DNA from: Allacma fusca
Taxonomy: Eukaryota > Arthropoda > Collembola > Symphypleona > Sminthuridae
NCBI GenBank assembly: GCA_947179485.1
Contig: OX359246.1
Span: 54,167,632 to 54,231,631, forward strand
DNA length: 64,000 bases
Direction of reading: 5' to 3'
Part shown: positions 36-64,000 of the stretch, piece by piece
How positions within the stretch are numbered: position 1 is the first letter of the stretch
How the letters are laid out: every line of letters begins with the position of its first letter
Program-made: the position numbers and the translations under genes
The notes under the pieces: model-generated
What the model was told of the DNA's origin: nothing
Database searches by the model: none
Seen by the model: the letters and a program-made list of their open reading frames with translations, nothing else

Positions 36-352
36 ATCTTAGAGTCAACACAACAACAGAAGAGCTGAAATTCCTTACTAAGGAAGCCGTCCTTCACTAC
101 AGAGCCATACTTAAGACACTTAAAGGTAAAACGTTGGAGGACGTGGTAGCAGAGCACGAGATTATTTTACACGGTGTTGAAAAAAAATTCCGGGAAGCAT
201 ATGAAGAGCGTTGTATTGATGGGGAGAGCTCATTGCCCCAATTAAGAAAAATTATTGGAAGCGTGCTCAACAACATTTTATTGACGCATCAACAGAAACA
301 GGTACTGCGATGGTATGATGACAAATACCTTCAAGTTATGCCAGCGAAGTAA
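36..352 (+). CDS. P0: 3' terminal exon of a helical-module gene (5' part outside window)
   Basis: An open frame runs from a splice acceptor (pyrimidine tract ending in AG at 34-35) to a TAA stop at 350-352 and encodes about 105 residues. The codon is split after its first base, so the intron is phase 1, as in the other array genes. The peptide is alpha-helical and charged. It shows the half-module pattern of the neighbouring family: an Ala/Tyr-containing helix (EAVLHYRAILKTL), then a helix with a conserved His (VVAEHEIIL), a Phe (KKFREAY) and a Leu-rich end (VLNNILL). I infer it is the C-terminus of another family member whose upstream exons lie outside the window. Similarity is weaker than between P1 and P9, so it could be an unrelated helical protein. 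Confidence 0.55.
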
Positions 353-1613
353 TAGGTTAAGTAAACAAAATTAACACAAATAAAATTTACAATTTACTCG
401 TTAAGGAAGTAGGTATTTATATACTTACATTTCCTCATCAACCTATGGTTCATCTTGTACATATTTTTGTTTCCTTCAGGAAACAAATATATATTTACTA
501 CACAATCACACTAATTATAATTTTTCGTACTAATGTAGAGGCAAAAACATGAAAACAGTAAATGAGGAGGATATACGCTAGACAATATGTGTACGTCATA
601 ATTAATAATTCGCAATTTCCATCTAAGAGTAAGAAACACAAGTCACGACGCGAAGCTCAGGAATACAGTGAATTTACAAGCAAATGTTTGTAGATTTCAC
701 ATATGTACATAACGCTATTTTGCGTCACACAACAAATCAAAATGGTAGCACTATAAGTGCATGTAAAGGTTTATTTAGATTAATTTTTACATGTGTTTAC
801 ATAAATCTGTAAATATTGTAAGGTTTAATTAATAATAATTAATTATTAATTGTAATTAATTGTATAATAAATAATTATTATATATTTTTCATTTATTCTT
901 ATTTGCAACTACCACATTTTTATCATCTTCTCATTTAAGGAACATTTTGCACGTATGTAAGTAAACATAGTTTTCATTTTATTTAGTTTCAACAGAATCG
1001 CCCGTATTGCATACATAGATACATACATACATACGTGAAGTTATGTTAGCTATGAAGAATAGTCTTACTACTGTCACATTAAGCGTTACATTTTTTAGTT
1101 TGTCATGATTGCTACAATTGAAAAGACTTACTTTGAAGAATGGAAATTAAAGAGATAGGCTTATCAAAAAATGTAACCCTAATCAGTAGTGCCGTTCCAA
1201 AGTTTGCCTGAAAGATAATCAGATAAATTCGGGATGGGTGTATTTTCCGCTTTCTAGCTTAGCCTTTTCATATAATTCTTTAAAATGAATTCCTCTTCAA
1301 CAACTTTTAACACGAACAAAAACCATACCAAAATATTCATTCATAGCTTAATGTCTTTCAAACTTCTCATTCCTCTAGTACTTTACATTGTCAATCCTCA
1401 ACACAATGAGTGATTAAATTTGTATTCCTGTTATACTATTGCTAGGCAGTTATGAGAAGTTAACTCCATGTACCGGCTTGCTCACCCATAACTTTAACAT
1501 TTATTCCACATTTCCTACGAAGTGCTCCTACACAGCCATCAACCATTGAAGCAGATATCACTGTCAAGATAGCTACGTAAATTTATTTTTACTACAGCTA
1601 ACCTGCATTTAAA
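353..1613. other. Intergenic region between P0 and P1
   Basis: No convincing gene. It is AT-rich, with a run of TTAATTAATAAT-type short inverted repeats around 826-885 and an ATAC microsatellite at 1011-1034. The P1 promoter and untranslated leader should lie in the last few hundred bases. Confidence 0.5.
1011..1034. repeat. ATAC tetranucleotide microsatellite
   Basis: About six imperfect ATAC/ATAG units read directly from the sequence. Confidence 0.7.
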
Positions 1614-1702
1614 GTAAGTTTTGCTTTATTTCTTCTAAGCAACGAAAATAATCTCAGAATAAATATAGTTGGGTCCATTTACTCATGCATTTACTGTTTC
1701 AG
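1614..1702 (+). other. Probable 5'-UTR intron of P1
   Basis: A GTAAGT donor at 1614 and a TTTACTGTTTCAG acceptor ending at 1702 bracket 89 bases, about 90 bases before the P1 start codon. The same leader-intron arrangement recurs before several other array genes. Confidence 0.45.
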
Positions 1703-1792
1703 GCTTCCGTGATAATCCTTCACTGAAGACTTTGAAGTCTTTTAAAAAACAAACTATAAGTTTCCCGGGATAGTTTTTAAGAAGAGTACAAA

Positions 1793-4700
1793 ATGCCAAC
1801 CGTTTTCGAACAAACGACGGAACCTTCAGCTATCACAGTTATTAGGAAAATAACAACTTCAAAATCAACTGGAAGAATTGGAATTCGCTTAGAAGCCGGT
1901 AGCGTCCTGGTTGGGGATTTGACAGCCAAGAATGAACTCGGAGTATTTTTGGTATTACGGGATAACATCAACATCAACAATCACCTCAAAAATTCACCCT
2001 TGCCGAGCCAGTTCTGTGTCAATGTCCTCCTGAAACATTCAAATAAGCGATATGTCATCCATTGTAACAAAATCATTTTTCCACTTTCCGCTGAACACAT
2101 TCTCGCAATTTATTTCATTAAGATAATGTCAATGCTACAAAAATTAAATATAAATGCCACCGAGGAAATAGCTGTTATGATTCAAGAGTCCAATGCCGAA
2201 GCCTCCAATGCAATTCAAAAGTCACTCGCAATAATAAAATCTGCAGGTCCATCCCTTTTTGCGTCCCAACCTTTATATAGATTCGTTGCAACTCATAGTT
2301 CTGACGACACCTCATCGCTGGACAGTAGCTCTTCTTATTCGGTATTGGAGAGACTCTTGCAATTCCTAGATTTGACAAGTAAGTAAATTCTATCGAATAC
2401 AATGGTTACAAACCAAATTTTTCTGGTTCATTCTTTTGAAAAATTATGAAATATTATTTGAGCTATCAAGCAGAAATTGTATTTTACAGCCTATTAAATT
2501 TTTTTAGATGATGTGAAAATTGATTCTGGAGAATTTAACAATTATACTGTGAATCCTCCGAGTGAGCCTCACCTCAGTCCTGAACAATTCAAACTCATAG
2601 AACAAAGCGTGGCGAGAGCAGTGGAGGAAGGGTTAAAAACTCATAAGAAATTCATGTACTCCGTCACAGGCAGGAAGGAGCCCTTCACGGATACTCAGCT
2701 CAAGAATTTTCATGACAACAACCTCCGTAGCATTGCAGCAACTTTTGCTGAAAATTTTAAAGAACTTGCATCTTCCTACTCCAGTATCGCTTCTTGTATA
2801 AAAGAAGCTCAAGATAAACTGGAAAAGAAAACTAACCTCCAGCTAATGAGTTATTTGAAACGATACGAAACGTCTATTAAAGCACTGACAGAAAAAGTTA
2901 AGCACTGGATCATGGAGGCAGAATGCTTGTATGATGAGGAAATGGAAGAGTTCAACCCAGAGGAAAGAACTAGCCAGGAAATTAGAACTAAACATGCGGA
3001 GCTTGAGTTACAGTTTATGACTTGGTTGAAGCAAAAGTTCACTGAAAACAAACTGGAATGGCAGGAGTTCTGGAAATTCGAGCCACAAGAAAAATTATCC
3101 GAAAAGCTTGAGGAACACCTTGCTACTGCCCAAAAGGACACCTCTAATTTTGGTGACACCCTGTCGTCCTTAAGTAGTCCCATGCTTGTGTTGAAGAGTA
3201 TTCAAAGAGTTCAAAACTCCTCCTTAAGCTACGGAAATTCCATGGAGAGTTCTCCAAGAGCTCCACCAAATTCTTTGAGCAACTTTGAAGATTCGGAGTC
3301 ACTGATACCCGGTGGATTTACTAGTCGCGATGAACATTACTTAAAAGATCATGCAAATTATGAAGAGCCTACAACAGACCCATTTATTGATGAAAACTTT
3401 GAAGGGAGGGGTGATGCCGCTGATCAAGAAGAATTTAATCATGTGGAAGAAGAAGATCCACCTTTGCAATTTACACAGGAAGTGTCATACAGCTCAGATT
3501 TATCTGAAAATAATTCTATACAACTAGGTGACCTTGAAGAAAACAGCTCAAACAATCTAAAAAACTTTGAAATACAATCGGGCGGTGATATGGAAGAATT
3601 ACTCGAACCAGCCAATGAACCAGTTGAAGTGGAGACACCAAATACATTACTTTCCGAGCCAAATACCAATTCTATCGAAGGTTCAGAAATCGAAGCAACG
3701 TCCCCTCCAAACCTAGACATTTTAGAAGCAGTCACGGAAATCGAAGTTGAAACAACTTTATCTCCAAATCCAAACATTTTAGAAGCAGTCACAGAAATCG
3801 AAACAACTTTATCTCTAAATCAAAATATTTTAGAACCAGTTACGGAAATTAAAGTTGAAGCAACGTTCTCCCCAAATCCAAACATTTTAGAAGCAGTCAC
3901 AGAAACTGAGCCCATCGACGAGACAATTAAAAATATTGTTCTAGATCATGAATCCGTTGCTGGATCATGTATTCATGAAGAAAAACCTCTCGCCGAAGAG
4001 GGTCAAAATTCGACCCAAAATTCTACTTCTGAAATTGAAAGGCAACTTGAAGAAGCCGGTCGAGATACGTGTACTCCAATCGAAGAACTTTCTGGTTCCT
4101 TGACCGCGAGCAGCACTAGTGTCTTAGACACTGACGTAGCTACAACTTTGACGGAAATCGGGGACGATAATGTTCTTGAAAGGCAAAGAACTACCCTTGA
4201 GGGACAAAAACAAGTTCCCGAAGAGGCCTCTGTCAACAACGAAAGTGCTAATGCACAAGGTCTACAGCAATCGTCAGAGCAGGCTCTAGCATTAGAATCT
4301 GTTACAAATGATGAGTTGGATAGTCCTCGAAGAAATAGTAATTCTGGCAACAGCACAAAAGTACCTGTTTCATCAGCCAGTGGGGCTACCAATCCGTATG
4401 ATATTGAGGGTTCTGATGAGGATATTCCTACCCCAACAGCATCACCGATCTTTACGGAAAACAATCATGAAATCGGTAATACTTCCACTCAGGCCGTCAT
4501 GGATGAAATACTGGAAGAGTGCTGTGAGAAAGAAGGTGATTCATCAATCGACTCAAATAACAATCCCAGCGATGGTAGTTCGGGGCCTACAGATGACTTT
4601 GCATTCATATCTTTGCAGGACGTAGCCAGGGAGACATCAGTGTCGTACGACAATCTGGCGGGCATTGAAGTAGAAAACTCTTTGGTCAGGTCCAAGGTTT

Positions 4701-4840
4701 TAGGACACTCCAGCTCAACGCAATCTTTACCGGAGAAAACAACAACTAACACTAAGTCATTCCGTTCAGGCAAGAAGAAGTTTGAGCCCAAGTCAAAAAG
4801 AGTTATTTATGAAAGTACCTTAACTATCAATACATTGTAA
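1793..4840 (+). CDS. P1: half Hsp70-like unit, one helical module and a long acidic tail
   Basis: Two exons, 1793-2378 and 2508-4840, with a GTAAGT donor, an AG acceptor and a phase-1 junction; 972 residues. Residues about 25-195 correspond to only the first half of the family's Hsp70-like unit (RIGIRLEAGSVLVG, then FPLSAEHILAIYF). The second nucleotide-binding half and the substrate-binding domain are absent, and the part that remains lacks DLGT. Residues about 215-405 are one full helical module (VEEGLKTHKKFMYSV, PFTDTQLKNFH, EAECLYDEEMEEF, EFWKFEPQEKL). The remaining 560 residues are acidic, Ser/Thr-rich and probably disordered, with four copies of a PNxxILEAVTEIE repeat (residues about 596-664). 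The last 25 residues are basic and end in VIYESTLTINTL, resembling the P4 C-terminus. ATPase activity is not expected; a scaffold role is inference. The start is the first ATG after a probable leader intron. Confidence 0.8.
3700..3912 (+). repeat. In-frame repeat in P1, four PNxxILEAVTEIE units
   Basis: Four successive units of roughly 45 to 54 bases translate to variations of PNPNILEAVTEIEVETTLS. They differ by substitutions and small in-frame length changes, so they are an expanded coding minisatellite in the acidic tail. Confidence 0.75.
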
Positions 4841-5291: not shown

Positions 5292-5490
5292 GTAAGTATC
5301 TCAAACTCATTAAATCACTGTTCATAAAACAAACGTGCTTTCATCTTATGATAATAAATATGCTTGATTTCACATACTCACTTTTCCGGACTTCATTCAG
5401 TGGTGTCCCATGACACTTTGTAATGTAATTAAATATTACGTTCATACAATGTTTTATCTATTAATTTCTGTCAAAAATTATTTTTTCTAG
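5292..5490 (+). other. Possible 5'-UTR intron of P2
   Basis: A GTAAGT donor at 5292 and an acceptor with a strong T tract (TTTTTTCTAG) ending at 5490 lie upstream of the P2 ATG at 5578. Confidence 0.4.
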
Positions 5491-5577: not shown

Positions 5578-6615
5578 ATGCAGAAGTGGCTTTGCTCCTC
5601 CAGTAATAAACTGACAAGTAGTGACATAACTTCAAAACACGTAGTGTGTGATTATAATAGCCATGCCGAAAACGCTTACAAAGATTTCAATGATCACATG
5701 GAGAGAATATTGGCAGTCACGCCATTACTTTTCAACGAGCTCAAAACGTTTATTGAAAAAGAGAAAAAAATTGCTGAGGTAATTTTCACGGAATTGTGCG
5801 GCAATTTCCGTACCGATCTAAGTGAAGACGAGAAAAAAGATATTGCTTATCGGTTGATCTCATTAAGGACGAAAATCAATGCAAGAGCAGATCGCTGTAA
5901 AATTGACTTTTTATGTAAGTTCCCTGAAATGTGTGTTTATAAACCGCTTTCAATTCTTACTTTAATTAAATATGATTATTACTTTTCACTGAAATTGTTG
6001 AGCTTAATAATATCATAAATAAATCTGGGCTATGTAGTTCAAAACACCGTTATGAAAGCTGTCGAGGATGCAAAGGAGTTCCACACACAGAAAATGACTG
6101 ACTTTGTACAACAAAATGTCCCTTTAACGGAATCCCAAATTAAAAAATACCACGGCGACTGCCTGGAAGCTGTAACCGACGCATTTACTTCCACCTTTCA
6201 AATAAAAATTACTCAAATTTCATCACGCATGCTGAAAACTACATTACACAAACTAACACGGAGCATTAATTCCCAATTAATTGTGCATCTCCAACGACAT
6301 GAAATCGAAGCTAACAAAATCATTAAAGAAATTCAGATGTGTACCTTGGAAGCAGAAGCTTTATACGATGCGGAAATGGATGCTTTCATCCAGAATTACG
6401 GCACCTCTGACGGGCTGAGCTACGTCGACGAAAGTTTTAAAGTTCATCATCAAAAGGTAAGACAGAAAGCAGAGCTTCTATGGCAAAATACCATTCGGAG
6501 TAGAAAACTTGAAACTTTCTTGAACGCCGATGCTGACCTCCGTAAAAAGTTAGACGAGAAATATAGTTATTTGGTAGACGATGCTGACAAATACGTAGCA
6601 GATGATTGCTCTTAA
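5578..6615 (+). CDS. P2: compact helical-module protein without a chaperone unit
   Basis: Two exons, 5578-5914 and 6038-6615 (GTAAGT donor, TATGTAG acceptor, phase 1), give 304 residues. I chose the ATG at 5578 (ACCATGC context); upstream in-frame codons are not ATG. The N-terminus MQKWLCSSSNK carries a cysteine at position 6, as in other members with possible acylation sites. Residues about 30-112 are charged and helical, weakly resembling the N-terminal helical region of P6 and P7. Exon 2 holds a recognisable helical module (AVEDAKEFHTQKM, PLTESQIKKYHGDCLEAV, EAEALYDAEMDAF, HHQKVRQKAELLW). There is no Hsp70-like unit. This is the smallest complete member and shows that the helical module can stand alone. 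Function unknown. Confidence 0.75.
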
Positions 6616-6871: not shown

Positions 6872-7391
6872 CTATTTGCGGTAACCTCCCATGGATGGGG
6901 CAGAGTAGCTTGGCGCAGGGGCGGAGTAGCTAGGAGCGCCATAAGATGATGTTGGTGCGCTGTATGATGGAGCTGGGGCAGAGTAGCTTGAAGTTGGTGC
7001 TGATGCGCCGTTGGATGGAGCTGGAGCGGAGTAGGCAGCCTTAGGGGCAGGTGAGTGGTAGGTGTGGATGGTGTAAGTGGTCATGGTTGGGGCCGGGGCG
7101 TGGTAGACAGTTTTAGGTGCTGGTGCGCTGTAGGATGGTGCAGGAGCGTTGTAAGAAGGGGCTGGTGCACTGTAGGAAGGTGCCTGAGCGCCGTATGACT
7201 GAGAAGGTGCGGAGTATCCACCACCGTATCCGTTGGCGCTGGCAGCGGCAATTACAGCCAATAAGCAAATGAAGGCCTGAAAGATCAACCAAAATACAAT
7301 TGAATATTGAATTTAAAATACGTTAGAATTTAAAGATTATTTTTTAAAAGAACAAGATTTTTTGTCAAGGAATATTTAAGGTTACCTTCAT
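6872..7391 (-). CDS. Secreted Ala-Pro-Ser-Tyr repeat protein, cuticle type
   Basis: Minus-strand gene with a tiny first exon (7391-7386, Met-Lys), a donor GTAACC, an acceptor CTTTCAG, and a second exon 7276-6872; 136 residues. The split after Met-Lys is common in arthropod cuticle and silk-like secreted proteins. Residues 1-18 (MKAFICLLAVIAAASANG) form a clear signal peptide. The mature protein is Gly-rich at its start and then largely repeats of PSYSAPA, interrupted by a His/Thr/Tyr stretch (KTVYHAPAPTMTTYTIHTYH). Such AP-rich repeats are typical of structural extracellular proteins of cuticle or eggshell; no chitin-binding Rebers-Riddiford motif is visible. It lies between P2 and P3 on the opposite strand and is unrelated to them. 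Confidence 0.85.
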
Positions 7392-9270: not shown

Positions 9271-11626
9271 ATGGGCTTTCTTACATGCCTGAATTCCGAA
9301 AATTTTCATGAGCATGATTTAAGCCCGAGCTCTCATAAAATACCAGAATTGCCCTCAGTCAATATAGGCATTTATTTAGACGAGAATTCAATAACCGTAG
9401 GCACCATCGAAACTAGGAACATTCCCGAAATAATCCTTCAAATCCCAGCGGGAATAACGTTTTTCAATGAACAGATTGTTATTGGAGGGAACGTCGAGAA
9501 AAATCAGCAAGAAAGCAATTACTTTCCCCTCAAAGAACTCATCAAAGACATTTCTCAACAAACTCCAAAAATCGTACTCAACTCTGCGGAATTTTCTCTC
9601 TCCAAAGAAGAAGTGCTGGTGATATTTTTCCAAAAGCTCCTTTTCCAAATCAAGTCACGAAAAAACGTCAAATCTGTGGAGCATGTTGTTTTTTCCTCAC
9701 TTTTGGCTCTCACAAGTCTAGAGAAAGAAAGGCTGAAAATATCTTTGGAGGCAGCTGGCGTCACCTCCGTCCGAATCGTATCATCACTGTTGACAACAGC
9801 TATTGCCCATGCGGGAGAAATCAATTTTTACACAAGGACTCCAGAAATACAAAAGTCACTATTTGTTGCTCAGTACACCGAAACATCATTCTTCCTTTCG
9901 ATTGTGGACATTACTCAAGATTTCATTGCCACGAAACGTTGCTTTTCGTCCGCAAACTTGATCGAAAGTCAAGATGGCGCTTTTATGCAATACCATAAAA
10001 GTTTGTTTAACAACAGAACACTCAAGCCTACCCAAGCTCACTATGTTTTAAAAGCATACAAGAAAGCCTGCAGAGTTCTTTGTAGTGAAAAGACCCTGAA
10101 AAAAATTAATCTAAAGATTTTGAAACCCTCAGGACAAAATTGTTTTTTAGATGATATCCTGTCATCAATTTTTGACGAAGTAAATGTTCAAGAAGCTTTT
10201 GCAAAATCCGGACCGCTTACTGGAGCTTGTCTTCTGGCTTCAAAACGAACTCCTGGATCTGTCCTCCCTTCCAGCGTTAGTGTATGTGATGCTGGTTTCA
10301 CCAACTTAATTTTTTCACAGGCTCTTTCTACGACTAAAAGGTCTGTTAGGAAGATTGGCAATTTCTGTCCGAGGTTAATTTTGGATTTAAAAGTTCCCGC
10401 AGCACTTATTAAGCCCACAGACATTGTGCTCCAGGAAGAATTTTTGAAAAACAAATTATTTACAACTGTGGGAAAGTACAGTTTAAGAATAAAGAACCAA
10501 ATGAGATCCGGAGTTGCCCCGGTACGTTTAAAATGTCTAATAGATCAAGATGGGATTTTTAGAGTTGAACTTGGTGACCGTGAGCTTGATGCAATCTGGA
10601 CTAGATTAAACGATCCGAATGTTAAATTCGGAGAAGATTCTCCTGTCAATAGTATTTTGTCGTACTACCAATCCATCCAAGGTAAATACATAACCAAATG
10701 TGCTTTGTCCTTTGACTTTTTCGTGATAAGTCGAAATCTTAAAAATGTTGAAATATCCTGTGTTTACAGAAATAGCTACCACGGAAATTGCAGAAGCACC
10801 GGTAGAACTTAATGAGGTTTCGGAAGAAACTGCTGATGAAACGAGATCTCTAGCTGAATCTGGCAGTGAAAGCGAAGCTGAGTTTTATTCAGCAAACAAC
10901 ACGCAATTTACAGCACAAGGTGAGGCTATACAAGAAGATTCCGAAGTTCCTGAAGTGGCCTTTCCAAGCACACAAATTTCTAGCGTTGAGTCGGAATCGT
11001 CGGAATCTGAAGAGGAAACACTTTCTGACAGGGAATCCACGAAAGTGGAACCGAACACTGAAAAGGAGTCAACAGAAATTGAAAGTGTAAAAGAGCTAGC
11101 GGAAGTCGTAAGCGAAGAAGAGCCAGCAGAATTTGAAAGCGGCAAAGAGATAGCAGAAAAACCTTACGAGGAACTATTTTTTGAAGAATATTCCGTACCG
11201 CCTCAAATCAAAATTTTTCAAGACGAAGCTGATGTAAAAAATGTAACAGAACCAGCAGAGAATCTATCACAAATGTTCGACTCCATCAGAAGCTACAACT
11301 TTGGAACAGCGACTCTGAAAAACAAAACGGATCTTTGGTTGATTGAAGCAGAATTTCAATATGACAGTTCCATAATGGAATTCAAGCCGAAAGAAAAATC
11401 TAGAAGTGGAATTCAGCGAATTCATGAGCGACTCAAGGTTGATGCTGTTGATGATTTCAAGCTAAAGTTTAGGAAGCACGGTTTGGAGCTGAAACAAGAC
11501 TTACTGGATGATTTAGAAACAAACCTCAACAATAAATTTCAGAAACTAATTGATGGGTTAGGAGCTGGAAACACACATGACATTTTTTTCAGGGAAATGA
11601 GTGGAAGTTTAGAAAGTTCATTGTAA
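9271..11626 (+). CDS. P3: Hsp70-like unit, acidic linker and half helical module
   Basis: Exons 9271-10681 and 10770-11626 (CAAG|GTAAAT, TTTACAG acceptor, phase 1); 755 residues. The N-terminus MGFLTCLNS has Gly2 and Cys6, a possible myristoylation/palmitoylation site. Residues about 29-330 follow the Hsp70 nucleotide-binding fold (VNIGIYLDENSITVGTI; SSLLTTAIAHA where Hsp70 has NEPTAAAIAYG; GPLTGACLLAS). About 340-470 follow the beta substrate-binding domain (VCDAGFTNLIF, then LIDQDGIFRVEL, compare Hsp70 DIDANGILNV). The nucleotide-contact motifs are lost. Exon 2 opens with a Glu/Ser-rich acidic linker of about 170 residues, then only the second half of a helical module (IEAEFQYDSSIMEFKPKEKS). 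An AATAAA overlaps the stop codon. Probably a pseudo-chaperone; partner unknown. Confidence 0.85.
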
Positions 11627-12626: not shown

Positions 12627-15600
12627 ATGGAGGGACTTCTCAATCTTGGAATCTTCGTCGGTGAAAGGAACGTCCTTGTGGGAGCCGTGCCACTTCCAAA
12701 TAAACTAATGTTTCCACTGGAATTTTCAGATGAAATTACATTTACGGAAAAACAAATTCAAATAGGTTGTAACAATGCTAGCAAAAACAGGCTGCGGCTA
12801 ATTCCTCTTATCAAATCTACCTCCCAATGCTGCAATGCGATTCAACTACAAAATATGATTTTTCCACTCGCTAACGAAGAGGTTCTAGCTATTTATTTCC
12901 GTAAGGTATTTGAGGCACTAAACGAATTCGGAAGATTCTCAATTAGTGCCATAGTCGTTGCATTACCGTTCATCCCCAGCAACTCAGAAAAAGAAAAGAT
13001 ACGAAATTCCTTGAAAATTGCTGGTGTTTCCAACGTCCGGGTACTATCATCCATGCTCACCACAGGGGTCTCATTTGGCCGGAAGGAATATACCAGGAAA
13101 CTGAATAAAACTAAGGTGATTTTAGTAATTCAGATACAACGGCAATCATTCTTAATGTCAGTAGTTCAGTTCGAACAGGATGGAATTTCTGTGTCAGAAA
13201 GTATCAACGAAACTTTTCCAGAGGGTCATGCTTCTATATTCAACCCCGAAGAGTTGACGAACAACATTTACTACCAAATCCTACAAGCGTACAAATCAAC
13301 AGCAGAAAAGCTTCAGGCCGAGAGAAAAATCAAGACAGTAGTTGTTGTAACTTCATTAAAAAACACTACGACTTTGACGAAACTTTTGCAAGCTGTTTTT
13401 GGTACTAGAAAAATATTGTATTCAAAAGAGGATCATCTCATAGGTGCTTGTATTTTAGCTTCACAATCCTCTGGGCTACCTCCTCACTTGAGTGTTCATG
13501 AAAAGAACGTTCATAAACTGAAACTACAGTGCGATAGTAAATTTTGGACAATTCCATTGGAAGGAACTAAATCCTTTGGAGTAATTTTTGAAGACGAAAT
13601 TTTAGTTGCACCACAAGGCTCAAATCTGATTCTTGAAGAATATATTGAAGGAGAAGAAACTCCAGCACTCGTGGGTCAATACAAAGTAATTGCTAGCACT
13701 CCTTCACAAGCAGATTCTAACATTTCTGTGGCAGTCCTGACTTGCACATTTCACGAGACTGGTCACTTCGGTGTAAACATCAGCTTCCCTAACGGCACCC
13801 ACGGTCATATGTCCAGGATGGACAACTGGCTAGTTGGTTTATCATGTGATACCATTGCTATGAAGAATATTCTGCGGTATTATGAAGTAACAGGTGAGGC
13901 GTTAATTTGTGACGTACTTATAAGAGCTCATTGTTAAATTATCAGAAATATGACACAATAAATAAATTTGTTTACAGGCAAAATTAAGTTGGACATGAAA
14001 GTAGAGAACCCAGCATTAATCCAAAGATCCCACCGTCTACTAAAAAGGGGGGTTGGGGAATGCTTGAAAAAATACACTGGCACAATGCTGCCCCTATATA
14101 ACTCAGAAGCATCGCAAGAGCAAATCCAGAAATTCCATGAAGGGATTTCGAATATTCTAATTCAGGAATTTTTACTCTCCAACCGACAGAATATGATTGC
14201 TGGACGAGGAGCGGTAAATGTTTTTCTGAAAAAACTTCACTCAAAAATTAATTATGCAAGAGCCACCTACTCTTCTCTCAGGAAGCCCAAACGAAAATCA
14301 ATTGAAAATGACACAGGCAAAATGAACCCGACCATGTTAAACCTAATTAAAGATACTCTCCAAGCACAAATTGAAGAGGCGTTAAAAACCCATAGAAACT
14401 TAATCTATAGGATCACGGATACAACGAAACCTTACACCGATCAGCAAATCAAGAAATATCATGACGATAGCCTTCAAGGCGTACTTCTTACCTTCGATCA
14501 GTCCTTCGGTCCACTCATGGGAAATTTCGATCTACTCAAAAATGAAGTATCAGTTGCAAGGGAAGCAATTCAAAAGCAAATTGACTCTCGGTTGGTAGTT
14601 TACCTCAAAAGGAATGAAGTGTCTATGGAACGTATGTCTAAGATGATAAAAGTCTGGACGATGGATGCAGAAGCATTTTATGAGGAAAAAATTGAAGAAT
14701 TCCAGACAAAGAAACATTCACAGGAAGAAGTCAAATCAAAGCATCGGGAACTGGAGCAGCAAATACTCCAGACGTTTCACCGAAATTTTGAGGAAAATGG
14801 CTATGAAATTCATGACAGCTTTAAGGCAGAGCTAAATTCAAAACTAGCTAAATGGGAAGCAGACGCATTGGTAACTGCTTTCCCGGATTTGAATACCAAC
14901 GCATTAAATCAAAACTATCATCCTTTAAGTAGTCCAGGATTAATCAAGCTTGTCACCAATTTAGCATCTAATAGTACCAACACTGACAGCAGTAGAACAT
15001 CTCCAAAATACTTGAATGAAGAATTACAAAATTTACAAGATTTTGACGACACACAGTCCTCACAGTCCTGTGAACAGGAACAAATTGAGTCCATTCAGCA
15101 AGAAATTATTGTGAAAAGCTACGAACCGGAATTGGGGGAAAATGTAAATGTTTCCACAGAAGCACTGCAACAACATCATGATTATGACTGTATGCCGGGA
15201 GGAGAAACCATGCTAAATATTTATGAAGAGCTAGAAAATAATTTACAGACAGCATGCGCAGCCTCTGATTCTCAGCTACCAACCCCTGATGATCAAGAAC
15301 AAATTCTAACGGTCAGTGATGTCGAAGTAGCAAAGCTGATAGAAAGCAGTTTTGAAAGCTCAATCAAAGAAAGCATCCTGGTTCAAAGAAAACTCATGTT
15401 CAAATTAACTGACATCAAGGAACCCTTCACAACTGCTCAGATCAACCAACATCATACGGAGAGTCTAGAAGCCATTGCAAGTATCTTCCGTGAGACATTC
15501 CAAGTTTTAGGACGACATGAGCAAGTTGTAAATACAGAGGAGAGGATCATCAAGAAAGCTAACTTTCACCTTCCAACCTACATGGAAAGGCATCAAGTAG

Positions 15601-18600
15601 TCATAAACAAGATTATAAACACAGTCAAAGAATGCTGCATTATGGCTGAGAACTTCTACGAGGAAAAAATGGAACAGATCGGGCCAAGTAGAAAAACTAG
15701 AATTGAAATAGAAGAAAAGCACCACAATATTAAAGAATTAACAATACAAGAATTCCAAAATCTAGTTCAGAATCGGAACATTGCATGGCAAGACAACTTC
15801 AAATGCCAGTTGGAGTCAAGTCTGGCGGAAAAATTACAGGAATTATTGGATGACGTTGAGGACGAAAATACAATTGAAAAAAGTGACGACGAACAACCAG
15901 AGAATAATGGAGATTCAGACTCTCCCGATGAAGTTGCTAATAATGGATACTCGGATGAATGCTTTATTACAGAACCTGAAGATTCCAATAATATTCAAGA
16001 TGAAAACGAAGAAGACTACAGCACATTGCAGGAGCAGGGAAGTACACAAGATTCATACAATGAAACTATTGAAGTACTTGAAAACAATGAGAATGTTATA
16101 ATAATGAAAGACAATGAGGATATTCTTAATGAAAGCCATCCGAGTGACCTTTATGACTACTTCAAGAGCTTCATGAACCCTAACTTGAACTTAGAAATAG
16201 TAGCATCCCCCACACTCCCTGAATTTAGTGCATCTGATCTAATGGAGCTAACTAGAGCGGCACCAATGTACAACAGATACTACCTCGGCCCAATATTTGA
16301 GGATACCTTAGGGGAGGAAATAGCAGAACTTGAAAATGAGCTGACAACGACTCCTCCACAAGAAATCGCCGATTATTTGCAAACAATAACTAACTACGGT
16401 TGTATTTCTGACCCTAATTTATCCCATTCCTCTGCTCGCTCAGCTGGAGAAAGTGATAACGAAGAAAATCCTGAAGTTGGTCATCCTGCTGAAGATCAAA
16501 ATGAAGAAAATCAAAATGAACAAAATCAAAATGAACAAAATCAAAATGAACAAAATCAAAATGAACAAAATCAAAATGAACAAAATCAAAATGAACAAAA
16601 TCAAAATGAACAAAATCAAAATGAACAAAATCAAAATGAACAAAATCAAAATGAACAAAATCAAAATGAACAAAATCAAAGTGAAGAAAATCAAAATGAA
16701 GAAAATCAAAATGAACAAAATCAAAGTGAAGAAAATCAAAATGAAGAACATCCTGCTGAAGAACATCTTGAAGAAAATCAAAATGAAGAACATCCTGCTG
16801 AAGAACATCTTGAAGAAAATCAAAATGAAGAACATCCTGCTGAAGAACATCTTGAAGAAAATCAAAATGAAGAACATCCTGCTGAAGAACATCTTGAAGA
16901 AAATCAAAATGAAGAACATCCTGCTGAAGAACATCTTGAAGAAAATCAAAATGAAGATCATCCTGAAGCACATCCTGAAGAAGATCATCCTGAAGCACAT
17001 CCTGAAGAAGATCATCCTGAAGCACATCCTGAAGAAGAGCATCCTGAAGCACATCCTGAAGCACATTTTGAAGATCATAATGAAGCAAATCATCCTAAAG
17101 ATCATAATGAAGATCATAACGAAGATCATAATGAAGATCACAATGAAGATCATAATGAAGATCATAATGAAGATCATAACGAAGATCATAATGAGGATCA
17201 TAATGAAGATCATAATGAAGATCATAATGAAGATCATAATGAAGATCATAATGAAGATCATAATGAAGATCATAATGAAGATCATAATGAAGATAATAAT
17301 GAAGCAGTTCATAATAAAGCAGAACACCCTGAAGATCATAATGAAGATAATAATGAAGCGGTTCATAATAAAGCAGAACACCCTGAAGATCATAATGAAG
17401 ATAATAATGAAGCGGTTCATAATAAAGCAGAACACCCTGAAGATCATAATGAACAAGATCAACATGAAGCAGACTATCCTGATGATAATAATGAACAAGA
17501 TCAACATGAGGCAGACTACCCTGAAGATCATAATGAACAAGACTATCATGAAGCAGACTACCCTGAAGATCATAATGAACAAGATCAACATGAGGCAGAC
17601 TACCCCGAAGATCATAATGAACAAGATCAACATGAAGCAGATCATCGTAAAAAATATTATTGTATTGTAGATCAGCCTGAAACAGATCATTCTGAAGTTC
17701 ATGAAGTCGATCATACTGAAGATAATATTGAAGTCAATCATCATGAACAATATAATAATGAAGTAGATCATAATGAACAAGCTCATCCCGAAAAAGAAAA
17801 TAATGAAGTAGCTCATAATGAAAAAGATCAACCAGAACAACATCCTTCTGAAGAAGATCATTTTGAAGAAGATCGTCCTGAAATAGATCGTACTACAGAA
17901 GATAATCTTGAAGTAGATTGTCCTACAGTAGATCATCTTGAAAAAAGTCGTCCTGAAGTAGATTGTAATACAGTAGATCATTTTGAAGAAGATTGTACTA
18001 CAGTGGGTCATCTTGAAGAAGATCGTCCTGAAATAGATAGTACTACAGTAGATCATCTTGAAGAAGATCGTCCTGAAATAGATAGTACTACAGTAGATCA
18101 TCTTGAAGAAGATCGTCCTGAAGTAGGTCATCCTGACGAAGAGCAGTCCCTTACAGAAATTGAAGAGTATGAAGATATAGAAGAAGTCAGAACTGAAGTA
18201 ATTACAAAAACGACGGAAACATACCCCGGTTTATGCACTCTTCAAAATTGTACTGGACCTACAGCTAAACCGGATTTTGCTGAATTCAACAACAAAACTG
18301 AGCCAACATATGGTATGAGCAATGGAGTAAAAAAAGAAAATAATTCAGATGAAGATGTTCGTACTGAATACGAAAATGATCCCGTAACTGAGTCCAACAA
18401 TAATAACGAAAAAATTAGTAATAACGATACATGTTCTGTCAAGTTGAAAATCCCTACTGTTGTAAATTTGACTAACTCCAATGGCCTAACGGATCATAGC
18501 TTCACTGGATTAAGCAATAGCTATAAGGATCTATCAAATCTACTGGATGAAGAAGTTGCTAATAATTTTGACGATTCCCGTAAGACGAATGGAAACATAG

Positions 18601-22590: not shown

Positions 22591-22591
22591 A

Positions 22592-46358: not shown

Positions 46359-46581
46359 TTTCCCTATAAACTCTGGATATTTGATGAATAATTCCTACAA
46401 TTGATGGCTAGTTTTTTAGTACCTAACCTACCACTCTGCTACAGAGTGTAGTGCTATCTCCGATGGTCTGTAGCAATCTAAACTGACTAAATTGTAAGGA
46501 AATACCTTAAATCATTTGACAATTCCATGTCCGGCTGTACGGTTTAATTTCAGAGTTCAATTATTACGGCAGGTTTGTTCA
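46359..46581. other. Upstream region of the chemoreceptor gene
   Basis: Presumed promoter region; no clear TATA box. Confidence 0.35.
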
Positions 46582-55304: not shown

Positions 55305-58300
55305 ATGAGTTTGTATTGCCTTCATAAAAACAACCAAGACAAAGAGCCAGGATACGGTACGCCCGTAGACAATTCTCACTACGGGAGCGCTTCTCCAATT
55401 AATGCTGAGGTAGGGTTATCAGTGGTCGAAACCGACGTCGAAATTCACACTTCCAGTAATCGGAAATCAGACGAAGATTCGTTGCTGGATGCTTCTTCAT
55501 CAATAAAAAGATCTAGTCACTCCAACATTCAATCTATAGGAAGTTCACGACAAACTCTACAACACAACGTTGATGAAATATTACCGGCACCAAAAGAGAA
55601 GAAATCATGGTTTAGACTAACTGGGAAACGCAAAGAAACCAAAGACAAAAAGAAAAAGGAACCCAAACTAAAACCACCAAAAAAGCAGACCAAAGGCAAT
55701 TCTCTCCAAAATTTGCAACAAGACCTACAAAGAAGCTCTGGAAAAGCTTTAAGGTCGTACAACGAAACCATGGAAAATATCCTATCTACAACACACCTAA
55801 CAGAATACCAAATCCGGAAATATCATGAAGACCACAAACAAAGGGTACTAAAATCTTTCTCGGACGAATTCCACCTCCAACTCCAATCCCTTCAAAAAGA
55901 CATTGTTGCCATGATAATTGAAGAAAATACAAAACTTGAGAAAGACATTACAGCTCTTTTCGAACAGCGCCTCAAGCAATATCAGCAGCAAGGTGGTATC
56001 TTGGCTGAAGCATTAGCCCAATCCCAAAGTTCCTTAAATAACCTCTCCCCCAGATCAACCTCCCCCACAGCATCCATAGCCAGCATAAGCACCCGCTCCA
56101 ACAATCAGTCCCCAGCGTCATCTAGGACGAGCTTGAGTGAACATGAAACTTCAAGTATAAAGAGTAAAGGCAGATTTTCTTTCATTCGAGTAGGATCAAA
56201 ATCAAAAGGAAAACCCCAGCCTCCATCTTCTAGGTCTCCTAGTCCAGCGCAAACCCAAGCAGAAGTAGAAGCCCGTGCTAAAGAAAAGTTGGAGAAACTA
56301 ACCAAAGCGGTTCAACGAAAGTCAGAGGACGCTCTCAAAAGCTACAAAGTAACTATGGACGCTTTCGTATCATCCACGCAAGAACTGAAGCATGATCAAA
56401 TCCGGACAGCTCATGCTGCCAGCACAAGGACAATTCTTTCAAAGTTTGATGAAGACTTTCAGGATTTTTTCCATTCAAGAAACCGATCTGCAGTAACAAT
56501 TGTGCAAAATGCAAGGTTAAACTTGGAAACCGATATGAATACAAAGTTGGCCTCATATTTGCAAAATCACCAGGAAAAACTATCCAGGGAGCAGGCTAAA
56601 TCCATAATAAAGCAGGCTGAGTACTTCTACCAAAAGGAGATGCTGAAATTCCAACCTAGCCTTAGAACTGAACGTGAGGTAAAAATCAAGCATTTAGACG
56701 TTGTTAAAGCATCTTTGAGCTACTTTGACGTCTTAGTGAAGAATCAAGGCTGGGTTATTCCTGCCACATGGAGAAACGAGATTCAAATTAAGCTGGATGA
56801 AAAACTACAAGAAATTCTACAGCAATTGAAACAAGAGGATGATGTGGTGATGCAAGAAGTAAGCAGCCCCGCTCCTGTTGGGACAGCTGCTGACATTATC
56901 AACAACCTGCATAAACTTTCTGAAGTACCAGTTCCACGTAAGATCATATCCATTAACGTTGGAATTTATTTCGACTCAGTTAACACCATCGTTGGAACAA
57001 TCAACCCCAAAAATTTAAGAGAGCCGGAAATTATAAAAAGTTTTCAATCCAACATTAATTTTAAAGATGATAGAATACAAGTCGGGGGCCCACAGGAAGC
57101 TGAAAATTCATTTGATATAAGCGAGCTTATACTTACTGAATCTTCCCCTAATCACTCCTTGAAGCTAAAATCACTAAAGGTCTCACTTTCCACTGAAGAA
57201 ATCATCGCAATATTTTTTGACCAGGTTCTGAACGAAGTGAAAGTACAGAAGAAAGTTGATTCTGTTGCTACCGTTGTCGTCAGCGTTCCATTTGTTATTA
57301 CAAGTCTGGAGAAAGAAAAACTTCAACATGCATTACATGCTGCAGGTGTAGCGGAAGTTAGAATCTTATCCTCATTAATTACTACAGCAATTGCGCACGC
57401 ACAAGACATCAACTACTTCGGTAACCAATTCGAACCCAAGCTGATATTTACTACTCATTCGCAAAAGAAATATTTCTCGATGGCCATCGTAGAAATAAAA
57501 CCCCGATCAATAATAACCAAACGCTGCACAGGTTCCCAGAGTTCAAAAGATGGGTTGCTGCAAACCTTTCAAAATTGTCACGGACATTTGTACTCAAATG
57601 GGAAGTTAAAACAAGATCAAGTATCCTACGTTGCTAAGGTTTACGATTCGGCGGTGAAGCAACTATTCCGAGAAAATAAAGTCGATGCTCTCATTGAAGT
57701 TAGGAACACCCCTGGAGAAACCATGATTAATCGAATAATTAATTCAGTCCTTCGAGAAAAACCGCAAACAAAATTAATTATTGAAGGTCCTCTCACAGGA
57801 GCATGTTTATTAGCTGCCAAAGGGTCAATACCAGAATCAATTATTCCCGCAAAACTTGAGGTGTATGACGCCAGCCGGAGCAATATACTCCTTGCCATTA
57901 ACTCAAAGGTTCAATTGGTAGAATATGGAAACCAGAATTATCGCCCAGATGTGATTTTTACAAAATCGTTAGTTGTACCACCAAACGGCTGCACCATAGT
58001 TCTGAGGGAAGTATACTTCAAGGATAAGTTCGTCCAAACTATTGGTCAGTATGTGCTGAATGCCAGAAGTAAGGCTAAGAAATGTGAGGTTGAATTGAGA
58101 TGCTCGGTCAAACCGGATGGAGTTATAAATTTAGAAGCTATCATGCCCAAAGATGCCACAGAGGGATCGCTGGAGAGAACAAATGCTATTACTGTTAATA
58201 AAACACCTGGAAGTGAACTGAACCAAGTTTACGCGCACTACTTTCCTCATATTTTGAAAGGTAGGATTATTTACGTCAAATTATTTTGTACAATGTCTAT

Positions 58301-61300
58301 CCGTAATTTTGTAGCGCGACAATGTATTTGAACCATAAATGCACATATAACATAATGAGACCTTTAAGTTTTAATTGTAAATACTATGCTATTATAATGT
58401 TAGATTCTAGATCCGAGGAAACGACTTCCCAAATATTGCGGGACCAAGATTTCAAACAGCCCAGAGCACAGCAAATAACACAACAGGTAAACGTACCGCA
58501 AGAAATACCACAGCAACAAATAGTGATTCAACCTGAGGTGTCTTCAACATCGAATTCCGATTCATTCCCAGAACAGCACCCAACAACTGTACCTCCAGTT
58601 CCAATCTCTGAAAAAATTGTTGAGGCAGTGCAAGAATATTTACAAAAAGCAGTACAACATGGAATACAAGCTCACAAAAATCAAATGAAGAAACTTACCG
58701 ATAATACAACACCTTTTACTGACAGCCAAATCCAGAAGTTTCACGAGAATAACCTCCAAGCTGTGATTTCAGCTTTCGATGAAACCGTCCGCATCATTCA
58801 ACAAGGTCCTGAAATAACTGCAGCAACTGCAGAGGCAAAAGAATCAATGATCAAAGAAATCAATTCACAGCTTGTGCATAGCTTGAGTAGACACGAAGTT
58901 ACAGTGTCAAGCCTTAGGAAAAAGATCAAAAGGTGGGAGCTGGAAGGAGAATGCTACTATGACGATCGAATGGAACTACTTGAGCCAAAGTCAAAATTAG
59001 CTCATCAGCTCAAATCAGAACATAAAAGCATCAAAGCAGACGTGCTAAATAAATTCGCTGCAAATATAAGAGGTGAAGGTTTGGAATGGCGAGATTTCTG
59101 GAAAGCAGAATTAGAGTGGAGACTAGAAAGTAAACTAGAAGAAGCGCTTGAAGACTGCCTTCAAGAAACGATTCTCAGCAATGTTGTTGCAACACAACTC
59201 TCAAAGAATGAAGCAGCGGTGATTCCAGTTCCTACAGTAAGAGCGAGAATGTCTGAAAAAAAAGAAGTCATTCCAAAAGACGAATTAAGGCAGACAGTAA
59301 GAGAACAAGTGGTGATAACAACGCAGAAACCCGAACAACAGAAAATCAACATGCCACACGAAAGAACAATTCCTATTGAGGGTAAAAAGTCAGATACAAA
59401 AGAGGCTCCTAAACAAATTGAGCAGCCCAAAGTAAATTCAACCGCCATTCTTAACAATAACCTGGATTTTGTAGCTAACAAAATATCACACGAAAAACCA
59501 AACGCGTCCAAACCAGTAGGATTTGTGCCCAAAGCAGGACAGAAATTAGTTTCTAACCCCAATGGTAAACCAAACTCAATACCAAACCAGATGTTTCCTG
59601 AAGTACCAAAATCAACACTGAGTCAAATATCTCCTGAAATACCAAAATTGATACCACACCAGTTGTCTTCGGAAGTACCAAAAACAATACCGTACCAGAC
59701 GTCTCCTGAGGTACCAAAACCAATATGGAATCAGGTGTCTCCTGAAATACCTAAATCAATACCGAACCAGATGTCTCCTGAAATACCAAAATCGATACCG
59801 ACACAGATGTCTCCGGGAGTACCAAAATCAATACCGACACAGATGTCACCTGGAGTACCAAAATCAATACCGACACAGATGTCTCCTGCAGTACCAAAAT
59901 CAATACCGACACAGATGTCACCTGGAGTACCAAAATCAATACCGACACAGATTTCTCCTGAAGTACCAAAATCAATACCGACACAGATTTCTCCTGAAGT
60001 ACCAAAATCAATACCGACACAGATTTCTCCTGAAGTACCAAAATCAATACCGACACAGATGTCTCCTGAAGTACCAAAATCAATACCGACACAGGTGTCT
60101 CCTGAAGTACCAAAATCAATTCCGACACAGATGTCTCCTGGAGTACCAAAGTCAATACCGAACCAGATGTCTCCTGGAGTACCAAAGTCAATACCGACAC
60201 AGAAGTCTCCTGAAGTACCAAAATCAATTCCGACACAGATGTCTCCTGGAGTACCAAAGTCAATACCGAACCAGATGTCTCCTGGAGTACCAAAATCAAT
60301 TCCGACACAGAAGTCTCCTGAAGTACCAAAATCAATTCCGACACAGAAGTCTCCTGAAGTACCAAAATCAATTCCGACACAGATGTCTCCTGGAGTACCA
60401 AAGTCAATACCGAACCAGAAGTCTCCTACAGTACCAAAATCAATACCGACACAGAAGTCTCCTGAAGTACCATATTTGCAGTCAAAGGTTCAGTTGTACA
60501 AACCGACGACAATTTTTAATAATGGCGCTCTTCAAAAGGAAGAAGTAACTGAAGTTGCTCCTCAACCGACGCAAAAATTTGAGTATAAAACTCCTTCGGC
60601 TTTTGTTATCATACAACCGTATAGTGAAAGAGGTACTAGAAAGCCAGTTACAACGAATCCTGGTTTTGTACCTATTGGTGCATTAGATAGAAATATCCCA
60701 ACGGAACATCAGAAAGTGCCTGCAGCATTGGAAAAAACTAAAATACCTCAGGTACCGAAGGTAGCATCTAGTGCCGAAAAGAAACGACTTTCCGCAGAAG
60801 GTAATGTAACTCCTACCTCCGCGGGATCGACCCCGTCCCCTCCAAGAAAGTCATCGCTGACTACTATTTCCAAACCAACCGAAGCGGTAAAAATAAAGAC
60901 ACCGAAGCCAGCTGTAAATCTGACGACTGCGTCTAATACTAGTAAGAATTATAAACCAGATGAGAAGAGACATCCAATTCCTGAAGTAAAAGACGAAACT
61001 ATCAGGCCGGCAGGACCAGTCCAACCAGCAGTAAAAGTTATAACGAAAATAATTCCAACAAATATTCCATCCCAGACAGTGAGTCCAACAAGACAAACCA
61101 AAACGTCAAGCAGTACTTCAATAGATTCTCCGAAGCAACCATCAGGATATACATACACCTATAACTTCAGAGATCCAACCATTAAACCAGTTAAGTCTCC
61201 ACTTTCAGTAAGCACAAGCAGTCAATTTCCACTAAGCAGCAAGAGAAGTAATAGCTCGTCGAGTGATGATTCCAGGAAGGCGAAACGATCTCCAAGAAGC

Positions 61301-64000
61301 AGTTATTCCAGCAAAATTCCAACTTCTGTAAAATCCAGAGGCAGCCCACCTAACAGTAAAGCCTCAGCTAACCCGAAAACATCAGCTTCCGGACCAGTGC
61401 AACCCTTGACTTCACCATCATTAATCAAGAAAGCTACAGAATCAGCCGTTCCTAAAGTTGCAACCACGACGTCTGCAATTCCAAATCAAACCAAAGGTAC
61501 CTTAGGAGTAGCCACTTCTGCAACAAGTAAGCATAACAAAACAAGCGCTAGTGTTGTAGCAAATTTAATAGGCCCACATAGTGTCAGGAATGCTGATGAC
61601 TTCCGAAAATCGATAATCAAGTCCTCCCAAAATCCCGTTGGCAAACTAACACCTGACATCGAAAAGGAGAAGCTTGAACTAATTCAGAATGCTTTGAACA
61701 AAGCAATTAAAGAAAGTATAAAATTTCATAACAAAGCTATCCAATCGGTCGCAAATAAAAAGCAACCGCACACAGAAAGAGCACTGACCGTGCATCACAA
61801 CAATCATCTCGATGCTATTTTAGAAGCCTGGAATCAAACATGTAGTCCCTTGAGTGCTTGCAGCATACCCAATTTGAACCAAGTATTGGACGAATCACAA
61901 GCTAAGCTTAAAAAATCCATCAACGCCCAATTGGTAACCAACATATTGCATTACAATACTTCGATTGAAAAGGTATCTAAGCAAGTAAAGCAGTTGACTA
62001 TTGAAGCTGACAATCACTACGATGATTTAATGGACGAATTCAATCCACAAGACAAGTCCCGCACAGAAGTGCTAAATGAGCATGCCAAAGTTAGGGAAGA
62101 GGTTACAACCATATATAAAGAGCGGGTTAATGACGCTGGATTAAAATGGGAAGACTTCTGGATATTTGAGTTGGAAGAAAGGCTACAAGAGAAATTGGAA
62201 GATTATTTGGAAGAATGTTTACCAGACAATGAACTTGATTCCTATCCACAGGATGTCATTAGTCATATGGACAGCAGTAATTCTGATTTGCAGGAATTCA
62301 CCACTAATGAAATGATGGTAGATCCCGCACCACAGCACAGAGTAAATACAGTGGACCAAAGCATGCCAAGTATGGAAATCACTAGTAAATCCGTATCCGG
62401 TTTCGATGGATACCAACCAACATCAATGTCTCCAGAAACATTTAGCGCACGTCAACACAGCCCAGCCCCTAGACCAGTATCCCCCATTTACGAAAACATC
62501 GATACGCAAAGCATGAAAGTTTTCCATTCCATTTTAAAAAAGAATGGAGCCCCGTCTCCAACCCGACAGGTCAGCTTCAAATTTCCAAGCAGTTCTCAAG
62601 GAGACCTGATGGAAAAAATGCAGTCTTTTGACAGATCCAACCATGCCATGTCCACATTTCACTTCAATAACCCAAATAATGTGACTCCTGGTCCCCCAAA
62701 AACAACACGTACCAAGTCTTGGCCGGATTTAGACAGCAATCTCGCTGCAGGACAATTCATTACAGCCGGGGTGAAGCGACCTGCAGTTGCTCCTCCGCCA
62801 GTCCCTTCTAAGCGAAACGAGCGGCTCAATGTTGGAATTTACTTGGATGAGAATTTTGCAAACGTTGGAACATTTCTGAATAATGACGTCAACGAAGTGG
62901 ACCTAATTTTACAAATGCCGGCTGAAATTGTATTCATGGACGATGAAGTAGTAGTTGGCTGGCAAGCAGAAAAGAACAGAAATTCATTAAACCACTTTTA
63001 CTTGTACCAGCTTATTAAAATCAAAGCATCTGAAGTTCATCCCGTACATTTTAAAACTATTAAGCACGCTCCGTGCACAGAAGAAATTATAGCGATGTTT
63101 TTCAAAAAATTGCATCAAAACATTTCGCTGCTGAAGACAGGTACATTTGTGAATAGTGTCATAATCACAATACCTTTCACCTTAACCAGTGCCGAGAAGG
63201 AGAGAATCAAAACAGCTGCCAGAATAGCGGGCCTTCCGAATGTACGTGTACTGTCGTCGTTGGTTACAATGGCAGTAGCATACGCAAGAGAGACACAGTT
63301 TTACTTAATGGATCGTCCCAAGGAGAAGACCATCCTCGTTGTTCACTACCTTAAGCATTCATTTTCAATGGCGGTTTTGGAAATCAGTCAAACTTCTATA
63401 ATCACAAGACGTTGTTTTGGCTCGGAGAACATGCCTGAGGGCCACCAGGTGGCTTTCCTTAGTAGCCATGCTCTAATGTTTGGAAACGGGACGCTCAACC
63501 AGAAGCAAGATATATATATCCTGAACATATACAAGAAGGCGTTACATGAGCTGTCATCAGGGACTTCCGCTTCCTGGGACCGAATTATCATAGTAAAGGA
63601 ACAACAGACGACTAAGTTAGACAAAGTCTTAGATAATCTATTCGGAAAACAAAACCAAGCTAGGGGATACCTGGATGGACCACTTCTAGGAGCGTGCTTA
63701 CTAGCGTGTAAAAGTCAGCTGAACATCCCAATAATACCAAACAATCTACAAGTACTTGATGCCAGTCGGTCCCATTTGGTTCTGGAATCTGCTACTGGTC
63801 AAGTTTGGAGAAAGCACTTTAGAAATCATGTTTTCAGACCTGAGATTGTCTTTCGATTCCCCCTGTCCGTGCCACCAGAAGGCACTGTTGTGGTTCTGGA
63901 AGAAGAATTTACACCAGAGGCGGAACCAACCAGGATTGGCCAGTACCAAGTGATGGCTCGTCGGGAGAACAACTCAAACTGTGATGTTGTCCTGGACTGT
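55305..64000 (+). CDS. P9: giant two-headed protein with two Hsp70-like units and four helical modules (3' end outside window)
   Basis: Exons 55305-58260 and 58404 to the window edge (AAAG|GTAGGA donor, TAATGTTAG acceptor, phase 1). I read the second exon through codon by codon: it stays open for about 5.6 kb, giving at least 2851 residues. Order: N-terminus MSLYCLHKN with Cys5; a basic-aromatic patch (KKSWFRLTGKRK) at about 98; helical modules at about 132-229 (partial) and 322-514, with another basic patch (KGRFSFIRVGSKSKGK) between; Hsp70-like unit 1 at about 546-985 (INVGIYFDSVNTIVGTI, SSLITTAIAHA, GPLTGACLLAA, YDASRSNILLA). Then helical module 3 at about 1057-1238 (VQHGIQAHKNQMKKL, PFTDSQIQKFHENNLQAV, EWRDFWKAELEWRLESKLEE), a 12-residue PEVPKSIPTQMS repeat array at about 1382-1677, a Ser/Pro-rich basic linker, helical module 4 at about 2068-2260, and Hsp70-like unit 2 from about 2458 (LNVGIYLDENFANVGTF, SSLVTMAVAYA, GPLLGACLLAC, LDASRSHLVL). 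Unit 2's substrate-binding part is cut by the window end. Confidence 0.85.
59590..60475 (+). repeat. Coding minisatellite of P9: PEVPKSIPTQMS units (36 bases)
   Basis: Roughly two dozen 36-base units lie in frame. The outer left ones have diverged (for example PKLIPHQLSSEV), and the central ones are nearly identical. The product is a regular Pro-rich, probably extended spacer between helical modules 3 and 4. Confidence 0.9.

Follow-up and report, generated by a model that had tools for sequence, protein, structure and literature searches.

A stretch of 64,000 nucleotides on chromosome 2 of the springtail Allacma fusca (contig C8, positions 54167632-54231631; referred to as the window, in whose numbering positions are given unless prefixed with C8) was found to carry eight complete Hsp70-like domains (heads H1-H8), all on the + strand and each with a complete or partial helical module of about 190 residues before or after it. 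In the sequences compared, the ATP motifs of the heads are gone from every copy, and the modules are probably related to the three-helix bundle of atlastins and GBPs. The proteins might act as ATP-independent client-binding scaffolds, a tentative reading to which we give somewhat less than an even chance. A literature search retrieved neither a fusion of an Hsp70 head with an atlastin/GBP bundle nor springtail GBPs. No earlier description of the architecture was found, and its helical partner now has named kin.

The Hsp70-like head and its ATP site

The eight heads could be aligned with one another, at 27-39% identity to the first row. When they were scanned singly with the Hsp70 profile PF00012, five of the eight matched above the curated cut-off and one below it (E 0.0077); H1 and H3 gave no match. 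A profile built from all eight heads matched DnaK at 6.5e-14. The predicted fold comprised a nucleotide-binding domain (NBD) and the beta part of the substrate-binding domain (SBD-beta) over about 400 residues, arranged as in Hsp70/DnaK and predicted to be docked as in DnaK. The NBD is shortened in this model, about 280 of 380 residues being aligned, and the head terminates at the first lid helix; the SBD-alpha lid was not seen. In the ranking of the predicted fold yeast Sse1 came second, and plain Hsp70s scored equal to Hsp110. Judged from the alignments, the relation to Hsp70 spans the NBD and reaches into SBD-beta, and on these two domains we regard membership of the Hsp70 superfamily as close to certain, in agreement with the original prediction of a pseudo-Hsp70 head, made from the sequence of the window.

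The ATP site was compared in 26 heads of C8 and three Hsp70s of the same genome (L043, L044 and L045); two further head matches, at C8:54082133 and C8:54360435, lie outside this alignment. Residue numbers follow bovine Hsc70. The position of Asp10 is occupied by Tyr in 22 and by Phe in 3 of the 25 readable heads, the region being missing from one further head, and the phosphate-1 motif was absent from all 25. The phosphate-2 and adenosine motifs and the catalytic Lys, Glu and Asp were missing from all 26 heads: none has Glu175 or Asp199, neither the GGGT loop nor the GG[ST] motif is present, and a gap lies opposite the segment bearing Lys71 in each of them. All of these motifs are present in L043 and L044, and L045, which is without the phosphate-1 exon, has those that it covers. 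The 25 readable heads instead have a NIGIYLDE-like motif in common. As the replacement is itself conserved, it indicates a derived trait of the family rather than simple decay.

The family thus shares the two-domain body and the Pfam matches with Hsp70/DnaK/BiP, but differs from these proteins in its replaced nucleotide motifs, shorter NBD, unseen lid and fused bundles. Hsp110/Grp170 proteins such as Sse1 are likewise non-canonical Hsp70 relatives, but they keep the ATP motifs, an extended lid and an extended SBD-beta loop, whereas in the heads the ATP motifs are absent and an extended lid was not seen. HSPA12A/B and the bivalve HSPA12 expansions, compared by description only, are also atypical and in places expanded relatives of Hsp70; they differ from the present family in its GBP-type modules, none of which is known to us in HSPA12. 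Pseudokinases and pseudo-GTPases are well known, but a large family that has given up the nucleotide site of Hsp70, yet retained its two-domain body and multiplied it, is not known to us, and none appeared in our literature searches.

The helical module

The profile of the module matched the atlastin/GBP bundle with a probability of 95.5, versus 0.3 for the lid of the organism's own Hsp70 (one sequence), and the identification of the module as an Hsp70 lid was dropped. We consider it quite probable that the module is a doubled relative of the atlastin/GBP three-helix bundle. By sequence it is an internal duplication, which can sit at the position of the Hsp70 lid yet does not resemble the lid. 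The first half-module is predicted to fold like the middle domain of atlastin-1, and from the internal repeat the second half would be atlastin-like as well. The 11-row bundle alignment included seven of 13 database proteins and three of the seven GBP-type loci of the genome itself (L048-L054), with fragments or near-copies and L048-L051 left out. The original prediction had described a helical unit not familiar as a named partner of Hsp70 domains; the unit proved distinct and well defined, and its match to a named kind of domain had not been recognised there.

Other searches with the module gave less. Foldseek alone returned nothing at E <= 0.001 for the module model, although atlastin-1, ranked 30th at E 3.5, had the top probability (0.69) among the best 50 rows. 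The module profile gave nothing convincing against PDB sequences, where two designed or de novo helical proteins were obtained at E 0.008-0.009 and the atlastin chain 3x1d at E 0.65. A curated Pfam domain was not assigned, since 13 modules yielded only scattered sub-threshold matches among the best 25 of 43 families, and PF02841 (GBP_C) was not among these best 25. PF02841 likewise had no match in the Allacma genome, nor in any of 14 control genomes.

By profile match the family has the helical three-helix-bundle domain of the atlastin/GBP/Sey1 dynamin-like GTPases (PF02263, PF02841), but its bundles are accompanied by a pseudo-Hsp70 head rather than by a GTPase domain with a P-loop. PF02263 gave 37 matches in the Allacma genome, 19 of them on C8, and the number of genes is smaller because some matches are exons of one gene; none of the 37 lay inside the window or overlapped a head or module match of the family. 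Some of the matches lie in open frames as long as 1500-1965 residues, most of which are on C10, and the GBP-type frames of L053 (C9) and L054 (C10) continue as long helical-looking sequence. The nearest PF02263 match ends at C8:54011145, about 63 kb from the start of the first family match at C8:54074041. This proximity was discarded as a sign of a functional cluster and given no weight, because one such pair was expected by chance at roughly one in six. An arthropod precedent is BmAtlastin-n of Bombyx mori, an antiviral atlastin relative with a GTPase; the excerpt of its description mentions no Hsp70 part, and the analogy is one of function only (PMC4926086).

Atlastins proper have a C-terminal transmembrane hairpin, whereas a simple hydropathy scan of the family frames in the cluster, with peaks in the domain cores, revealed no convincing transmembrane segment or hairpin-like pair outside these cores. 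One hydrophobic stretch outside the cores, at the start of frame 42643-43614, lies well ahead of the first Met and is probably an intron. The case for the membrane tether that had been proposed is weak. MG-type and Cys-rich N-termini are potential lipidation signals, and a lipid anchor is possible in the few proteins with MGGC-, MGFLTC-, MCCFCC-type or Cys-rich starts.

Organization and expansion of the family

The modules occur in three arrangements with the heads (module-head, head-module and module-head-module), in line with the two modules in varying arrangement of the original prediction, and 13 full-length and five partial matches to the module hidden Markov model (HMM) were obtained in the window, all on the + strand (Table 1). 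Protein P0014, an Allacma fusca database entry of 768 residues, is identical to H1 exons 1 and 2 over 755/755 residues from the Met at 9271 and has 13 residues more at its start than the H1 model. The join between head exon and half-module exon is the same in this public record, and the intron is located where an Hsp70 lid would start. For H2-H6, in-frame GT-AG joins from the head frame to the module frame exist, with several candidate sites each. The frame 58307-64174 may belong to H7 as its final exon, or it may be a gene of its own, H8.

Table 1. Family features in the window (HMM, hidden Markov model)
Feature	Position	Strand	Basis
Probable last exon of upstream family gene (head C8:54166211), like second-bundle half module	20-349	+	frame reading, no HMM match
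Degenerate, truncated head (IGIRLEAGSVLVGDL...FPLSAEHILAIYF)	1781-2386	+	reading frame; HMM match 1958-2149, 23 bits
Frame with helical module 2573-3142, then acidic tail, basic KKKFEPKSKRVI motif at end	2498-4840	+	frame and HMM
Helical module 6034-6588, no complete head nearby	6019-6615	+	frame and HMM
Head H1	9343-10707	+	alignment with the other heads
H1 exon 1: MGFLTC... start, pseudo-Hsp70 head	9271-10681	+	head alignment; P0014 identity
H1 exon 2: acidic linker, second-bundle half module	10770-11626	+	HMM; P0014 identity
Head H2	12639-13886	+	profile match
H2 exon 1: pseudo-Hsp70 head	12627-13893	+	best in-frame GT-AG join 13893^13978
H2 exon 2: partial bundle, modules 14322-14906 and 15297-15911, acidic low-complexity repeats 16491-18142	13978-19049	+	frame, HMM, repeat scan
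Head H3	20134-21357	+	alignment with the other heads
H3: MGGCFGKKKSKNKK start, head	19804-21375	+	frame and head alignment
H3 downstream frame: first-bundle half module 21852-22157	21639-22190	+	frame and HMM
Head H4	32197-33543	+	profile match
H4 frame: MDCFKNIFGRG start, N-terminal module 31633-32136, then head 32197-33486	31372-33573	+	splice donor probably near 33484
H4 last-exon frame: C-terminal module 33720-34262	33525-34268	+	frame; splice acceptor provisional
Head H5	35984-37306	+	profile match
H5 frame: basic start, N-terminal module 35294-35908, head	35108-37309	+	structure modelled from 35273 on
H5 last-exon frame: C-terminal module 37866-38432	37326-38435	+	frame and profile match
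Head H6	40498-41862	+	profile match
H6 frame: MCCFCCKSEEG start, head	40426-41865	+	frame and profile match
H6 downstream frames: half module 42220-42450, modules 42850-43395 and 43841-44356	41917-44458	+	frames and HMM
Head H7	56928-58241	+	profile match
H7 frame: half module 55704-56009, module 56310-56810, head	55305-58331	+	frame and HMM
Head H8 (open; reading frame ends 64174)	62825-64000	+	profile match
Single open frame (to 64174): module 58586-59206, 36-bp repeat x25, module 61667-62239, head H8	58307-64000	+	frame, HMM, repeat scan

The assembly searched comprised 392,743,791 bases on 91 contigs; an excerpt of the genome paper gives 392.8 Mb and 95 scaffolds for qeAllFusc8.1, with 75.61 Mb for chromosome 2 and 58.81 Mb for chromosome 4 (PMC10427803). 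The head query gave at least 29 matches, at least 28 of them on C8, and the sole match on C12 was a canonical Hsp70 with its motifs intact where read. All of the at least 38 matches of the module query were on C8. Groups of family members are located at 11.47, 39.73-39.78, 40.40, 54.07-54.58, 60.33-60.42, 63.14, 66.5, 67.04 and 72.9 Mb of this contig. The tandem same-strand expansion of the original prediction was thus confirmed, and its figure of at least ten paralogs holds if head-fragment and module-only units are counted, but not for complete heads, of which the window has eight.

Counted loosely by script, with partial modules included, 23 of 26 full heads on C8 have a module before or after them, and the adjacency is unambiguous for 21. 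The sole module near head C8:11484420 belongs to the adjacent gene, at the N-terminus of its product, and that of C8:54166211 lies beyond a degenerate head, although positions 20-349 look like a half module by frame reading. The heads without a module were C8:39727067, which is frame-broken and has a partial module in the adjoining frame, and C8:54577561 and C8:72908954, for each of which about 4.2 kb of sequence was covered by the module check. Some family copies are broken by stops. At C8:66515771-66516390 (L022, L023) a module copy with in-frame stops was observed, in pieces 71-83% identical to 58586-59206. At C8:60333346-60417310 (L037-L042, L030) module proteins were found, mostly followed by coiled-coil-like and Ser-rich sequence, and no Hsp70 head was present in the stretches read. 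A division of N- and C-terminal modules into separate clades was unsupported by a 32-row tree, in which the C-terminal modules did cluster beyond shuffled labels (five changes, with one of 500 shuffles as low); row 11482985 was labelled C-terminal in this tree but is N-terminal.

A search of 5.77 billion proteins with the consensus head gave four matches, all from Allacma fusca and named 'unnamed' or 'uncharacterized', and none was obtained when a single protein of the window served as the query. Each search scored the 7,994 candidates that shared most 5-residue words with its query, and other springtails may still have the family.

The recent exon duplication that had been suspected was borne out by modules 42850-43395 and 43841-44356, which are 88% identical with a synonymous divergence (dS) of 0.105, as were the repeat expansions (the low-complexity tract 16491-18142 and a 36-base-pair repeat present 25 times at 59569-60472). 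Of the rapid local evolution that was claimed, duplication and growth of linker repeats stood. In the six closest head pairs, however, the ratio of non-synonymous to synonymous divergence (dN/dS) was 0.20-0.47, indicating constraint on average, and no pairwise sign of positive selection was seen.

Two Hsp70 genes on C8, L043 (63141581-63143206) and L044 (67041536-67043197), keep IDLGTTY and DLGGGT, and each lies head-to-head with a pseudo-Hsp70 gene; the gap between the open frames is 733 bases at the 63.14-Mb locus and 354 bases at the 67.04-Mb locus. The two Hsp70 genes appear to have an intron at the position corresponding to that of the family. Read across this intron, both frames stop 10-11 codons past the first lid helix, the splice donor of L044 being weak, and from their sequences they look like lidless Hsp70s. 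The Asp of the L045 motif DEAVAYGAA is replaced by Ser in both, indicating that they are not wholly canonical.

Further observations concern the window itself. Similar basic tails, KKKFEPKSKRVI and KKFHRRGAKVI, end two family frames at approximately 4766-4837 and 18981-19046 and are possibly a shared C-terminal signal. The acidic repeat tract 16491-18142 (+) is composed of the units NEQNQ, EDHN and DHLEEDRPE, and other frames are also open there. On the - strand, an open frame at 6875-7312, hydrophobic at its start and with abundant YSAPAPSY repeats, resembles a secreted or cuticular protein, and neighbouring hydrophobic frames at 44986-46394 gave the impression of a chemosensory-type receptor. 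Neither RNA families nor tRNAs were found in the window.

Proposed function and alternative explanations

The mechanism that we propose, with slightly more doubt than conviction, modifies the client-binding scaffold of the original prediction and starts from the missing nucleotide site, owing to which the head would be fixed in one conformation. It could then bind peptides or protein partners constitutively through SBD-beta or its surface, while the bundles and long flexible linkers might self-associate or pair with the many GBP-type GTPases of the genome and so gather the heads on a surface. The divergent lidless Hsp70 that keeps its phosphate loops and neighbours the family at two loci might serve as an ATP-driven partner. 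Through turnover of copy number the set would be adjusted as its targets change, the likeliest targets being intracellular parasites or protein damaged by stress. A more specific version is a springtail-specific, cell-autonomous defence in which the GTPase head of a GBP has in effect been swapped for an ATP-dead Hsp70 head. The bundles would assemble on targets or on co-expanded GBP GTPases, the heads would recognise unfolded or foreign protein with the lidless Hsp70s as ATP-driven partner, and duplication of heads would diversify recognition as in NLR/GBP arrays; we consider this version unlikely.

Alternatively, the proteins might be stress chaperones, acting as Hsp110-like nucleotide-exchange or holdase cofactors of the organism's canonical Hsp70. 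Their number would then have grown as an adaptation to desiccation or heat, and the bundles would be BAG-like exchange domains. This is doubtful, as the heads compared are without ATP motifs, whereas Hsp110s retain theirs, plain Hsp70s match the head fold as well as Hsp110 does, and BAG ranks 43rd for the module, far under atlastin. It is similarly improbable that the proteins form a structural scaffold without client binding, in which the head would be only a relic for dimerisation or folding and a cytoskeletal or secretory matrix would be built from bundles and acidic linkers. The long low-complexity linkers and the module-only proteins with coiled coils would suit such a scaffold, but the derived NIGIYLDE-like motif common to the 25 readable heads and the dN/dS values of the six closest pairs argue against it. 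Derivation of the module from a diverged Hsp70 lid, which would make the whole protein a degenerate Hsp70, can hardly hold: the C-terminal module does start after an intron at the lid-start position, but the profile probabilities point to the atlastin/GBP bundle and modules are also found ahead of heads and without heads. Under paternal genome elimination, which we take to be the reproductive strategy of Allacma fusca, the genes might instead be rapidly duplicated decoys active in the germline or in reproduction, with genetic conflict, not pathogens, as the force that shaped them. Ongoing duplication and protein matches in one species alone, in a word-limited search, are consistent with this, but dN/dS was below 1 in the head pairs measured and the family lies on chromosome 2. 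The genome paper, in excerpt, mentions a 'peculiar reproductive strategy' and gives this chromosome as an autosome, not X1 or X2 (PMC10427803). Sex linkage of the family was ruled out because chromosome 2 is an autosome, and we consider the conflict explanation very unlikely.

With head matches, GBP-type bundles and two apparently lidless Hsp70s with phosphate motifs on one chromosome, the genome of Allacma fusca may contain both starting material and derived forms. Should peptide binding persist in the heads, the family would provide a test of Hsp70 client binding without a nucleotide switch, and if the bundles assemble with GBP-like GTPases, a chaperone fold would be linked to dynamin-type immune coats.

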